Shown one piece after another: positions 18,596 through 24,660 of a stretch of 64,000 nt of DNA; position 1 is the stretch's first letter; the number at the start of each line of letters is the position of its first letter. The stretch comes from Leptodesmis sichuanensis A121 (GTDB lineage: Bacteria > Cyanobacteriota > Cyanobacteriia > Leptolyngbyales > Leptolyngbyaceae): contig NZ_CP075171.1 in NCBI RefSeq assembly GCF_021379005.1, forward strand, positions 372,001 through 436,000, given 5' to 3'. The notes beneath the pieces are model-generated. The model was not told the DNA's origin and did no database searches. It was given only the letters and a program-made list of their open reading frames with translations. The position numbers and the translations under genes are program-made.

Positions 18596-19134
18596 CTCCC
18601 TGAGCGACTCGCTATAGATCGCTCCATCTTGAGCCGCCAGCAGCCCTGAGCCAGATGTGCATGGACGCAAGGGACCAGACCTGGTCTTCACAGGCGGCAT
18701 GATAAGGATGTCATGGTTGCATCAATTGAGGATAGCGATCTAAGCGGGTCAACCTCGTGCGATTCGGACAGAGTTGCCGTTGTACCCGCACACCCTGATC
18801 GAGGTGATATTACAACTGCTCGAAGCGGTGACCACACCGCTCAGTGCGGGGGACGCTCGTTTGCTCGTGCTGGTAGCGGGTACAACGGCGGCGCACACTA
18901 TGACAAGATGGCTGCAAGTGTTGAGCAATCTCACCATAACTTTTGCCCTGGAGCCGGAGTTCCACCATATCGAGCTTTTTGAATTTGCAGGAGATCTGTG
19001 AAGAATATAAACGATTATTAACTTGCGTATACAAGAGAGTAGATTTCTAAAAAACAAATTGTCCCGAATGATGCATCCATCTTAGGTAGGGAATGATAGC
19101 TAATGTGTTATTTTTCCTAACCCTGGACGGCTGC
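18596..19134. other. Long spacer between dnaK and GH65 gene
   Basis: Just after dnaK there is a short inverted repeat GACCAG-AC-CTGGTC (about 18682-18695) followed by TTCAC, a weak terminator candidate. The remainder is occupied on the minus strand by a helix-turn-helix gene remnant (annotated separately). No promoter could be assigned with confidence for the GH65 gene. Confidence 0.45.
18711..19034 (-). pseudogene. Helix-turn-helix protein remnant
   Basis: On the minus strand an open frame contains VELRLQGKSYGEIAQHLQ followed by HSVRRRCTRYQ, a clear helix-turn-helix of the kind in sigma region 4, LuxR or transposase N-termini. A TAA at 18810-18812 interrupts it, and in the same frame readable protein-like sequence (YHLDQGVRVQRQLCPN, then RLTRLDRYPQL) continues to 18711. 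I therefore call it a decayed gene, perhaps from a transposon, but I do not recognise the family. A short functional protein ending at 18810 is the alternative. Confidence 0.35.
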
Positions 19135-22100
19135 ATGAACATGGCTGATTGGATTGTTGTTGAAACAACAGAAGGTGAATTTAATCCAACCCAACTTCAC
19201 CATAAAGAGACGGTTTTTACACTCAGTAACGGATATTTAGGAACTCGTGGCACCTTTGAAGAAGGATACCCAGGAAGCTGTCCAGCAACATTGATTAATG
19301 GGGTGTACGATCGCGCTCCTGTTGTACAGACGGAGTTGGCCAATTGTCCAGATTGGTTATCGCTGACGCTTCGGTTTGGTCACTATGGGCCTACAGGTAC
19401 GCTGCAGTGGGAACGCTTTCGCCTGGATGAGGGGGAGGTGCTGCACTACCAACGGTGGCTGAATCTGCACCGGGGATTGTTAAGCCGATCGGTACGCTGG
19501 CAGAGTCCCAGTGGGCAGATCTTGACTCTTCGGTTTGAGCGGTTTGTGAGTCTGGCAGATCAGCATACGGTGGCGCTGCGGTGCCAGATTGAGTCGGACA
19601 ATTTTACTGGCCCTGTAGAGGTTCATGCTGGTCTGAATGGCTACCCAGATAATCAGGGGTTGATGCACTGGGAGCAGGTTGAAGCCGGAGCAGATCAGGA
19701 TATCTGGTTGGCAATTCGGAGCCGCGCCTCGAAGGTAGACTTGGGCATGGCAGCAAAAGTGACGATCGCGGCAGAAACTCCCGCCCACACCCTGGCAATG
19801 GGATTGCACGGTCATGCGGCCCTGATTGCCAACTTTGAGATGACCGCTGGACAAACGGTGACGATCGAAAAGCTGGTAACGGTATTTACCTCCCGTGAAA
19901 CCAGAAATCCCCTGCAACGGGCACGGCAACATTTAGCATCCCTGCCCGATTATGTAATTTTGCTGGCTGCCCATGAAGCTCAATGGGCTACGCTCTGGCA
20001 AACCAGTGACATTGTGGTAGAAGGAGATAGTACAGCACAACTAGCACTTCGGTATAACCTGTTCCAGTTGCTGTCGGCAGCTCCCCGCCACGACGATCGG
20101 GTTAGTATTCCGGCCAAGGCGTTGTCTGGATTTGCCTATCGCGGGCACATTTTCTGGGATACAGAAATCTTTATCCTGCCCTTCCTGAGCTATACCCAGC
20201 CTGCCCTGGCCCGAAATTTGTTGATGTATCGTTATCACACCCTGGCAGGTGCCCGTCGGAAGGCGCAGGCCCAGGGGTATGAGGGGGCAATGTACGTCTG
20301 GGAAAGTGCCGATACAGGAGATGAAGTAACTCCCAGTTGGGTGCCCCACGCTCACGATCCGAAGGAACTGGTGCGGATCTGGTGCGGCGAGATTGAGTTA
20401 CACATCAGTGCCGATGTAGCTTATGCCGCTTATCAGTACTGGCAGGCAACCGGGGATGATGAGTGGATGCGCTGTTACGGGGCGGAAATGATTCTGGATA
20501 CGGCGGTTTTCTGGGGGAGCCGAGTGGAATGGAATCCCCTGGCCGATCGCTATGAAATCCGGTATGTAATCGGGCCAGATGAATACCACGAGCGGGTAGA
20601 CAATAATGCCTTTACTAATCGGATGGTGCAGTGGCATCTACAAACGGCACTCAAAGTGTGGGATTGGCTGGGGGCTGTCGATGCAGAGAAAGCTGAGGAT
20701 CTGCAAGAACAGTTGGCGCTGACCGACTTCCGATTTGCACACTGGATGGAGGTAATCGGTAAACTCTGGGTGCCTCAAGATCCGAGAAGCGGCCTGATCG
20801 AGCAGTTTGAAGGATTTTTTGCCCTGGAGGATATCAACCTGGAGGAATACGAACCCCGGCTGCGATCGATGCAGGTGCTGTTAGGAATTGAAGGTGCGAA
20901 CCAGCGGCAGGTTTTGAAGCAAGCAGATGTGTTAATGCTGTTCTACTTGCTGCGGCAGGGAGCGTTTGTGGATGCTCCTGTCCTGGATGGGACAATCGTG
21001 TCTTTCAGCCCGCATTCGCCTGCGGCTCCAGGGGTATCTCACCTGGAAGCCTTGCAACTTAACTGGGATTATTACAACCCGCGCACAGACCACACCTATG
21101 GCTCTTCCCTTAGTCCTGCAATTCATGCAATTTTGGCCTGTCAGCTAGGCAAGGTGGATGAAGCTTACGAACACTTTATGCGATCGGCCCTGGTGGATCT
21201 GGCAGATGTGCGCAGTAATGCGGCGGAAGGGATCCATGCAGCTTCAGCAGGAGGAGTCTGGCAGGCGGTGGTGTTTGGCTTTGCGGGAATTCGCCTGACA
21301 GCCAATGGCCCGATCGCCTCTCCCCATCTGCCCACGGGGTGGACACGGCTGAAGTTTCAGTTGCAATGGCAGGGCCAAACCTATGACTTCGATTTGCAAC
21401 CAGCAGGAAAGACGGACAAACGCCGGAAAGCTCCCACGGTTCAGGCCGTTATTTTTGACCTGGATGGCGTAATTACGGATACTTCTGAATTTCACTATCA
21501 GGCGTGGCAGCGGTTAGCCGATGAGGAAGGTCTACCCTTCGATCGCACCTTGAACGACTCTTTGCGGGGCATCTCTCGCCGGGATTCCCTGTTACGGTTG
21601 CTGAATGGACGGACTGTGACGGAGTCTGAGTTTCAGGCGATGATGGATCGGAAAAACGGCTATTACCTGGAGTTGATTCGCACCATCACCCCAGCCCATT
21701 TACTACCAGGTGTTGCGGAGCTACTGACAGATTTAAGAGCAGCGGGAATCAAAATTGCTCTGGGATCTTCCAGCAAAAATGCTCCTGAAGTTCTGGAACG
21801 GTTGGGAATTGCCCACTTAATGGATGCGATCGCTGACGGTAACAGTGTCACGCAGTCCAAACCCGCTCCTGATGTCTTTCTGCATGCGGCTCACCAGTTG
21901 GGGATTGCTCCAGAACAGTGTCTGGTGATTGAGGATGCAACATCTGGGATTGAAGCGGCAATCCGGGCTGGCATGAAATCCGTTGGTCTGGGGCCAGCGG
22001 AACGGATGAAAGAGGCGCAACTGGTACTGCCAAACCTGGATGGTATGCGTTGGGCCGATATTCTGGATCAATTAAACCAACGGATAAAGCGATCGCAGAC

Positions 22101-22161
22101 AGCCCTCACCATTCAACGCTTGCTGCAAGATCAGAGGGGAGAGTTAAAAGTGAAGAGTTGA
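19135..22161 (+). CDS. GH65 disaccharide phosphorylase fused to beta-phosphoglucomutase
   Basis: A 1008-residue two-enzyme fusion. Residues 1-750 are a GH65 inverting phosphorylase (maltose, kojibiose or trehalose phosphorylase group): N-terminal beta-sandwich with LSNGYLGTRGTFEEGYPG, then the (alpha/alpha)6 barrel with the general acid E483 in GPDEYHE, matching the catalytic glutamate position of maltose phosphorylase. Residues 770-990 are a HAD-family beta-phosphoglucomutase: FDLDGVITDT with D775 and D777, GSSSKN and the KPAPD motif. Together they would convert alpha-linked glucose disaccharide plus phosphate to glucose and beta-glucose 1-phosphate, then glucose 6-phosphate. Which disaccharide is uncertain. 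ATG 19135 follows GGACGG; a start at 19093 is possible. Only 2 bases separate it from the next gene. Confidence 0.88.
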   Translation: MNMADWIVVETTEGEFNPTQLHHKETVFTLSNGYLGTRGTFEEGYPGSCPATLINGVYDRAPVVQTELANCPDWLSLTLRFGHYGPTGTLQWERFRLDEGEVLHYQRWLNLHRGLLSRSVRWQSPSGQILTLRFERFVSLADQHTVALRCQIESDNFTGPVEVHAGLNGYPDNQGLMHWEQVEAGADQDIWLAIRSRASKVDLGMAAKVTIAAETPAHTLAMGLHGHAALIANFEMTAGQTVTIEKLVTVFTSRETRNPLQRARQHLASLPDYVILLAAHEAQWATLWQTSDIVVEGDSTAQLALRYNLFQLLSAAPRHDDRVSIPAKALSGFAYRGHIFWDTEIFILPFLSYTQPALARNLLMYRYHTLAGARRKAQAQGYEGAMYVWESADTGDEVTPSWVPHAHDPKELVRIWCGEIELHISADVAYAAYQYWQATGDDEWMRCYGAEMILDTAVFWGSRVEWNPLADRYEIRYVIGPDEYHERVDNNAFTNRMVQWHLQTALKVWDWLGAVDAEKAEDLQEQLALTDFRFAHWMEVIGKLWVPQDPRSGLIEQFEGFFALEDINLEEYEPRLRSMQVLLGIEGANQRQVLKQADVLMLFYLLRQGAFVDAPVLDGTIVSFSPHSPAAPGVSHLEALQLNWDYYNPRTDHTYGSSLSPAIHAILACQLGKVDEAYEHFMRSALVDLADVRSNAAEGIHAASAGGVWQAVVFGFAGIRLTANGPIASPHLPTGWTRLKFQLQWQGQTYDFDLQPAGKTDKRRKAPTVQAVIFDLDGVITDTSEFHYQAWQRLADEEGLPFDRTLNDSLRGISRRDSLLRLLNGRTVTESEFQAMMDRKNGYYLELIRTITPAHLLPGVAELLTDLRAAGIKIALGSSSKNAPEVLERLGIAHLMDAIADGNSVTQSKPAPDVFLHAAHQLGIAPEQCLVIEDATSGIEAAIRAGMKSVGLGPAERMKEAQLVLPNLDGMRWADILDQLNQRIKRSQTALTIQRLLQDQRGELKVKS

Positions 22162-22163
22162 GA

Positions 22164-23573
22164 ATGAGGATTGTGGCTTATCTCTATCAGGATCCATTAC
22201 TGGAAGCGGTTGCTGATCCAGTGAACTGGCCTGTGGAGGTGGCTCAGGTGTATCAGGATCTGGCGATGGCGGCCTCTCCGACTTCGGCTAGGCGCAAATC
22301 TGCTCAGCAAGCGGCTGCAATGGAAAAGCGATCGCCGGAGAAGCGACCTCTGGAAAAGCGACCTCAGTGGCAGCAATTGTTGCAGGACTGCGATGCAGTA
22401 GCACCGGATTTTGTGCTAGTCCGACAATTGGAAGACTTGGGGTATTCGGTGCAGGAGGTGAGCGATCGCCTGAGGGAACTGGAGTTGCGGGGAATTCCTC
22501 TGATGACGCTGGAGGAGTTAGAGCGATCAGGATTTGATCCATCAGCGTTAGTGACAGAGGACTCGCGGGCTGAAATGTTACAGCGATTGCAGGAGATGCA
22601 GCAAAATCAGCGCAGTCGCCGGATTCGTCAAGGTCATGCTCGCAATCGGGTGAAAGCGTTGCCACCACCAGGGAAAGCGCCTTATGGTTACCGTCGCAGC
22701 AAGACTGGATATGTGGTCGATCGCACTACGGCTCCAGTAGTCAAAGATTTTTTTGAACAGTTTTTGTTGTATGGCTCGATTCGGGGGGCGGTTCGTTATA
22801 TGGCAAAGCGGTACAACAAGAAGGTGTCTGCTTCTACAGGGCTGCGCTGGTTGACGAATCCGGTCTATCGTGGGGATCTGGAATACCAGGATGGCAAGAT
22901 TATTCGGGATACCCATCCGGCGATCATTTCACGGGATGAAGCCGCTCAGGTCGATCGCCTACTGAAACGTAACCGTCGGATTGCCCCGCGTGCGGCCAGT
23001 GCACCTCGCTCTCTGGCAGGCTTGGTGGTCTGTGGGGAGTGTCAGTCTTCAATGACAGTGACTCGAGTGACGACTCACAATCGGCAACAGGAATATCTGT
23101 ATCTGCGTCCGAGAAATTGTGCCAGACAACCAAAGTGCAGTGCCATTCCCTACGATGAGGTGCTGCAAGCCACGATCGAACGCATTTGTGAAGACCTGCC
23201 CCGTGCGGTTTCTGGGGTGGAGTTGCCAGATATGACGCAGATCAAACAGAGCACGGTAGGGGCGATCGCAACGAAACAGGCAGCCCTGGATCAACTTCCA
23301 GATCTGGTGGCCAGTGAGGTGCTGGATCAGGACACGGCTGATTTGCGAGCTTACAAATTGCGGACAGAAATGGCGGAACTGGAAGACAAATTGGCTCAGT
23401 TGCCACCCGTAGATTTGAAGGCGACTGCCCAAACCGTCTCTATTCCCCAATTCTGGTTCGACCTTTCGGAGTCAGAACGCCGCTTCTACTTTCGGGAATT
23501 CATCCGCCAAATTCAACTGGTACGACACGAACAGGCTTGGGAGTTAAAGCTGCTATTTTTCTTCAGTCCGTAG
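22164..23573 (+). CDS. Serine-recombinase-like protein lacking catalytic residues
   Basis: A 469-residue protein with the layout of a large serine recombinase. The N-terminal resolvase-like domain begins MRIVAYLYQDPLLE; a Recombinase (PF07508-like) domain is at about 180-290 (GKAPYGYRRSKTGYVVD, NPVYRGDLEY); a zinc ribbon follows (VVCGECQSSM ... NCARQPKC); and a C-terminal coiled coil is present (about 380-430). Aligned to gamma-delta resolvase, the nucleophile S10 is D10 here (Q9 beside it), R8 is Y8, and the LDRLGR motif reads LEDLGY (89-94), losing R68 and R71. Strand cleavage by the normal mechanism therefore looks impossible. XisF-type excisionases are the nearest named cyanobacterial relatives I know. 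It starts 2 bases after the GH65 stop, so the two are cotranscribed. Confidence 0.8.
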   Translation: MRIVAYLYQDPLLEAVADPVNWPVEVAQVYQDLAMAASPTSARRKSAQQAAAMEKRSPEKRPLEKRPQWQQLLQDCDAVAPDFVLVRQLEDLGYSVQEVSDRLRELELRGIPLMTLEELERSGFDPSALVTEDSRAEMLQRLQEMQQNQRSRRIRQGHARNRVKALPPPGKAPYGYRRSKTGYVVDRTTAPVVKDFFEQFLLYGSIRGAVRYMAKRYNKKVSASTGLRWLTNPVYRGDLEYQDGKIIRDTHPAIISRDEAAQVDRLLKRNRRIAPRAASAPRSLAGLVVCGECQSSMTVTRVTTHNRQQEYLYLRPRNCARQPKCSAIPYDEVLQATIERICEDLPRAVSGVELPDMTQIKQSTVGAIATKQAALDQLPDLVASEVLDQDTADLRAYKLRTEMAELEDKLAQLPPVDLKATAQTVSIPQFWFDLSESERRFYFREFIRQIQLVRHEQAWELKLLFFFSP

Positions 23574-23583
23574 CGTTATCAGG

Positions 23584-24660
23584 TTATCGGGTGGGTTGCC
23601 AGATGTATTGCCCGGTTTTATCGATGTACCCAGCGTTGCCTCCGGTGTAAACCAGCGCTAACCCATTGGTGAAGTTGAGAGCGTAATCGAATTGGGATGC
23701 AATGATGAACTGGCCAGTTTGATCAATAAAACCAAATTTGTTGTCGAGCTTGACTGCGGCCAGTCCTTCAGAAAAGCGATCGCTGGTTGCAAATCTGGCA
23801 GGAATGAGCAGCTTACCTGTTTTATCGATGTAGCCCCATTTTCCGTCTTTTTTAACAGTTGCCAGTCCTTCGGAAAATTCTCGAATTTCTTCAAATTGGG
23901 GTGCGATCGCAACTTTACCTGTCTTGTCAATGTATCCCCACTGTTGATCGATCTGAAATCCGGCCAATCCTTCTCGAAAGTTCCCATTACCCGCCAGGTA
24001 ATCGCCTGCTAATTGGGGTTGAATGACGAATTTACCAGTTTTGTCAATGTAACCCCATTGCTCGTTTAGCTGAACCGCTGCTAACCCTTCTGAGAAGGAG
24101 AGGGCGTAATCATATTGGGGCGGAATGACAAATTGTCCACTTTTGTTGATGTAGCCATATTTATCATTCATCTTAACGGCGGCCAATCCCTCCTTGAAGG
24201 CAAGAGCATCTTCAAACCGAGGCGAAATAATTAACTTACCCGTACGATCGATATATCCATATTGAGTTCCCAATACAACTAAAGCTAAACCATCGGAAAA
24301 AGCGAAGGCAAGTCTAAATTGAGATGGAATTACCTTTTTTCCTGTTTCATCAATGTACCCATAATTATCATTTTCTTTGAACTGGGCACGTCCATCCACG
24401 AAACTCCAAACTAATTCAAACTGAGGCGGAATTATGATCGTTCCCGTGTGATCCATAAATCCAAACTTGCCATCCTGTATGATGCGAAACAGGTGATTTT
24501 TTTGAGACTTAGAAGAAGATTGTAAGGTTGGATGTGCACTGGTGGATGAATTTGGCATCTGAGCCAATAGAGAGTAACTGCCAGAGGACTCAAACAGGAC
24601 GAATAATCCTAAAGCCGTTATAGCTGCTGTTGAGCACTGCATCCAGGATGGCTGAATCAT
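23584..24660 (-). CDS. Secreted WG-repeat protein
   Basis: A 358-residue protein made almost entirely of WG (KWG) repeats. An N-terminal hydrophobic segment (ITALGLFVLFESSGSYSLLAQ, about 14-34) looks like a signal peptide or anchor. From residue 60 on there are nine repeats of about 33 residues, each marked by (W/Y/F)-G-(Y/F)-(I/M)-(D/N) followed by a T/S-G-x-x-x-I-x-P-x-F pattern and an F-x-x-G-L-A-x-V pattern. WG repeats are thought to form beta-rich ligand-binding folds; the partner is unknown. Probably periplasmic or surface exposed. It converges with the recombinase-like gene, with only 10 bases between their stop codons. Confidence 0.85.
   Translation of the reverse strand: MIQPSWMQCSTAAITALGLFVLFESSGSYSLLAQMPNSSTSAHPTLQSSSKSQKNHLFRIIQDGKFGFMDHTGTIIIPPQFELVWSFVDGRAQFKENDNYGYIDETGKKVIPSQFRLAFAFSDGLALVVLGTQYGYIDRTGKLIISPRFEDALAFKEGLAAVKMNDKYGYINKSGQFVIPPQYDYALSFSEGLAAVQLNEQWGYIDKTGKFVIQPQLAGDYLAGNGNFREGLAGFQIDQQWGYIDKTGKVAIAPQFEEIREFSEGLATVKKDGKWGYIDKTGKLLIPARFATSDRFSEGLAAVKLDNKFGFIDQTGQFIIASQFDYALNFTNGLALVYTGGNAGYIDKTGQYIWQPTR

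Follow-up and report, generated by a model that had tools for sequence, protein, structure and literature searches.

Among the described systems closest to the protein analysed here is XisF, the recombinase that excises the fdxN element, which has already been described together with its interruption elements (PMC4874684) and which has the same domain order. The best NCBIfam match of our protein is the XisF model NF041201 (E 5.6e-40, residues 59-452), at a score of 137.6 bits that lies below the curated cut-off of 375. In contrast to XisF, the family described here lacks the catalytic serine and three arginines, has no excised element, and is present across the class as a single chromosomal copy. 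Phage large serine integrases (A118/LI, phiC31, Bxb1) have DNA-binding, zinc-ribbon and coiled-coil structure in common with it, while its catalytic centre has been lost. Gamma-delta/Tn3 resolvase and Sin have the same N-terminal fold and helix E, and equivalents of R45 and D36 are kept, whereas R8, S10, R68 and R71 are replaced and the DNA-binding domains differ. A further likeness, in that a host has taken over a recombinase, is to Xer, Hin and SpoIVCA-type enzymes, which are domesticated mobile-element recombinases that retain catalysis; in the family described here it is gone throughout the class. Host-recruited enzymes that remain active are already known (PMC8987985), and xerC is rare in the cyanobacterial phylum (PMC5101192). 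The open-access literature that we searched for inactive or domesticated serine recombinases, XisF-like or cyanobacterial core recombinases, held no description of this family, although absence from open-access papers is no proof that a family is undescribed.

The window, the whole 64,000-nucleotide stretch of Leptodesmis sichuanensis A121 DNA that was analysed, carries the gene and its upstream neighbour as follows.

19093 to 22161, forward strand: GH65 glycoside phosphorylase-HAD (beta-phosphoglucomutase-like) fusion gene, upstream
22164 to 23573, forward strand: dead large-serine-recombinase-like gene, 469 aa (P0001), from the open reading frame, Pfam and orthologues
22164 to 22553, forward strand: degenerate resolvase-type N-terminal domain, aa 1-130, from its substitutions in the alignment and the model
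22566 to 22664, forward strand: long helix, aa 135-163 in the model, representing helix E plus arm and ending at the conserved LPPPGKAPYGYRR
22665 to 22973, forward strand: Recombinase DNA-binding domain, about aa 168-270, from Pfam, conservation and charge
22974 to 23198, forward strand: zinc-ribbon domain, about aa 271-345, with cysteines C290, C293, C319 and C325
23199 to 23564, forward strand: coiled-coil hairpin (helices 357-383 and 389-411) plus C-terminal module, the latter with the conserved PQFWxDLSExERRxYxREF

Three Pfam matches above cut-off, Resolvase (54-162, E 8.6e-9), Recombinase (188-270, E 1.3e-12) and Zn_ribbon_recom (284-341, E 1.3e-10), follow each other in the order of a large serine recombinase, and the Recombinase domain, a four-cysteine zinc ribbon and the coiled coil are all present. 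An earlier, sequence-only reading of this DNA had described an intact gene of serine-recombinase architecture, with Recombinase domain and zinc ribbon, that is not flanked by element ends. This description stands: the open reading frame is uninterrupted (469 codons plus stop), Pfam recovers the architecture, and neither inverted repeats nor tRNA genes flank the locus; no phage, RDF or attachment site was found for the gene. The same reading drew attention to the GH65 neighbour. The ATG does lie 2 bases past the stop of the fusion gene, but the adjacency is found only in the closest relatives (L056, L002, L003), and in the survey of orthologues' neighbours which that reading proposed, the usual upstream neighbour was a VOC/glyoxalase gene. 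Downstream, a convergent gene on the reverse strand (23584-24660) encodes WG repeats in 8 stretches, and its DNA repeats are spaced at multiples of about 102 bp.

By both sequence and structure alignment, gamma-delta R8 corresponds to Y8, S10 to D10, D67 to E90, R68 to D91 and R71 to Y94, with residue 1 of the model aligned to residue 1 of 2rsl, so that the four replacements named by the sequence-only reading are confirmed. Its claim that every catalytic residue is replaced was too strong, since the R45 equivalent is retained as R66 (RPQWQQLL); the D36 equivalent is likewise retained, as D32. No alignment or structure was found that restores an active-site serine and arginines, the structure giving the same replacements, with R45 as the only one of the active-site arginines kept. 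Moreover, a survey of orthologues proposed in that reading showed that the losses are common to the family. Among 125 full-length orthologues, none keeps R8 (tyrosine in 119); the S10 position is D, N or E in 119 and S in 1, the latter without R8, R68 and R71; the R68 position is E or D in 119 and R in 1; and the R71 position is D or E in 104 and R in 1. Two of R8, S10, R68 and R71 occur together in none of the 125. By comparison, 124/125 have R at the R45 position and all have D at the D36 position. Judged by this alignment the replacements are not chance, as they are fixed throughout the orthologous family, and cutting by the family is excluded as far as sequence allows. The single orthologue with R at the R68 position (L174, on G067 C1, from a genome which we take to be Gloeomargarita) is divergent and keeps D67 and R68 (WDRLGD) without R8, S10 or R71; it is possibly an intermediate in the loss of the active site.

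An AlphaFold2 model of the protein, built from an input of 125 sequences, reached a mean pLDDT of 89.9 and a pTM of 0.83. Superposition on 4kis, the A118 integrase bound to DNA, takes in residues 152-468 (Z 16.1, 5.3 A, 283 residues), and the N-terminal domain fits the catalytic domains of Sin and gamma-delta (Z 11-12); both Pfam and the model give a resolvase-fold N-terminal domain with a long helix E. Full-length structure matches include DNA-bound serine integrases, in keeping with the DNA-binding role that the sequence-only reading had suggested. A viral structure search returned ordinary integrases and resolvases only.

The gene is chromosomal, nearly always single-copy, and was found in the cyanobacterial class only. 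An orthologue was present in 48 of the 58 relatives searched, nearly always as one copy. Of 388 genomes in the class, 256 gave a match, about 240 of them at E < 1e-40, and in a phylum-wide draw all matches at this threshold (71/71) fell inside the class. Synechococcus elongatus and Thermosynechococcus-type genomes have the gene. It was absent from all 81 genomes of a reduced-genome family (f2), presumably the Prochlorococcus/marine Synechococcus group, and some large-genome lineages also lack it, so it is not universally essential. Outside the small-genome marine group, however, most cyanobacteria have it. A contig that we assume to be from Gloeobacter violaceus carries only an active-type recombinase with an LDRLGR motif (L048). 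Phage and plasmid collections held no close relative; identity in the matches listed is about 21-26%. A quick tree, computed from the Recombinase domain through to the C-terminus and including 12 active-type cyanobacterial recombinases, set the dead family apart from these as one clade (SH-aLRT 100); the long branches make the root and deep order of this tree unreliable. Leptolyngbya-like genomes (L052, L054, L055) have active-type recombinases that form a type of their own, with YCRVST / DRFTR (or DRFLR). In one genome (G329:C1:2868375-2869689) the catalytic and DNA-binding parts lie in two overlapping frames, and the break between them falls almost exactly where the domains meet.

Conservation is greatest in the Recombinase domain (about aa 168-270), which has a mean majority fraction of 0.81 and a net charge of +10, and each zinc cysteine of the four is present in 123-125 of 125 orthologues. 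The DNA-binding part as a whole carries a net charge of about +20; the N-terminal domain is acidic, with a median net charge of -10 versus -5 to +6 in the 12 active-type recombinases. Pairwise dN/dS values of 0.03-0.23 for helix E plus the DNA-binding domains and 0.03-0.47 for the catalytic-type N-terminal domain indicate purifying selection on every domain. The conserved modules and their charge suggest sequence-specific DNA binding. Since the N-terminal domain is constrained in most lineages and the R45 equivalent is invariant, this domain has some function of its own, which counts against a reading of the family in terms of pure DNA binding.

Nature has also removed the catalytic domain outright. 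It is wholly missing in L163, L168, L176 and L177 (family f23) and in L171 (f31), where the five short proteins start at or after the helix E/arm region and retain the DNA-binding and coiled-coil part. A six-frame search with an N-domain profile, which scored full-length L158 at 116.6 bits as positive control, found no remnant of the domain in the flanks of the short copies; that of L171 begins just after a site-2-protease-like gene. The short copies are themselves under purifying selection (dN/dS about 0.13-0.18 for two like pairs). These deletions show that the two lineages can dispense with the catalytic domain. L176 and L177 carry an additional internal deletion in the Recombinase domain. 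A single-sequence AlphaFold model of L168 was discarded (pLDDT 49.8).

Taken together, an active site lost throughout the family, DNA-binding parts that stay conserved, vertical inheritance as a single copy and catalytic domains deleted in nature argue for a domesticated DNA-binding protein. We consider it very probable that the family is an ancient, non-cutting, putative DNA-binding protein, acting as a repressor or an architectural or DNA-bridging factor. The domesticated, non-catalytic role suggested from the sequence is thereby the best supported of those weighed, given class-wide losses, single-copy occurrence, purifying selection, DNA-binding modules that are the best conserved part, and catalytic-domain deletions.

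Four other explanations were considered. It is improbable that the protein serves as a dominant-negative regulator of active XisF-type recombinases, through mixed dimers or occupation of their sites. Its XisF-type architecture and sub-threshold XisF match would fit such a role, as would the co-occurrence of active types in several genomes; but it is the only resolvase-domain gene in its own 5.35-Mb genome and in about 15 others of 59 genomes, and some surviving copies lack the catalytic domain through which dimers form. We rejected this explanation on both counts, and since many genomes have no active serine recombinase at all, the role of the family cannot depend on them.

Comparably little probability attaches to a main role in binding another protein, such as the upstream VOC protein, with DNA binding secondary. 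In 65 of 80 named loci (L056-L135; the runner-up neighbour family reaches 19 loci) a small VOC/glyoxalase-family gene does precede the recombinase gene in the same orientation, within 200 bp in 47 of 63 measured loci and often -3 to 60 bp apart, but the window genome (at C1:4104033-4104380) and several other lineages have the VOC gene elsewhere, and it is the positively charged DNA-binding modules that are best conserved. K-mer enrichment in the sequences preceding the two genes, used to look for a target site common to them, found none and yielded coding words and relatedness signals only.

An enzyme that is still active as a recombinase or nuclease through another residue, such as a Ser/Thr at position 9 or a new acidic cluster, is highly improbable. 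In favour of it, 59 of 125 orthologues have S at position 9 and a further 36 have T; D32 and R66 hardly vary, and acidic residues prevail at D10, E90, D/E91 and D/E94. Position 9, however, is freely variable and is Q in the window protein, so that it provides no substitute nucleophile; R8, R68 and R71 were lost together, and two lineages have deleted the catalytic domain. Active serine recombinases have a helix following S10, in the region of residues 10-27, where the model has coil.

Least probable of all is a decaying mobile-element fossil without present function, as split or frameshifted copies in a few genomes (G371, G163, G264, G200) and loss of the gene in some lineages might suggest, and this was rejected as contradicted by the selection data, the gene being intact in most genomes of the class with low dN/dS and 37 invariant columns across 125 sequences.

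For the domesticated DNA-binding protein that we favour, the following history and mode of action can be proposed. Capture of an XisF-type large serine recombinase would date to an early cyanobacterium, at about the time when Gloeobacter branched off or later. The enzyme would then have lost strand cleavage and persisted as a DNA-binding protein, passed on vertically in one chromosomal copy. The dead recombinase may dimerise via its long helix E, and its Recombinase and zinc-ribbon domains would grip a pseudo-palindrome some tens of base pairs long, as in phage integrases. Once bound and unable to cut, it could act as a repressor or architectural factor. The acidified N-terminal domain would be at most a module for dimerisation or partner contact, and the coiled coil, which is still present, may join one bound dimer to another, bridging or looping DNA. 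By homology with integrases, DNA binding, dimerisation, bridging and the nature of the target can be put forward in this form. A more specific version, in which the family is a class-wide chromosome-bridging or nucleoid factor whose coiled-coil-paired dimers hold two chromosomal sites without cutting, is conceivable, though we think it rather unlikely.

Databases label this gene a recombinase, though the residues for recombination are absent across the cyanobacterial family. Because full-length and catalytic-domain-less versions coexist, the family offers a natural experiment for telling apart what its parts do, in genetically tractable strains. With the cutting residues gone and the DNA-gripping parts strictly conserved, an old mobile-element enzyme is probably now a permanent DNA-binding protein. 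Hence, the family appears to represent an ancient domestication, in which a phage-type integrase became a widespread, putative host DNA-binding protein.
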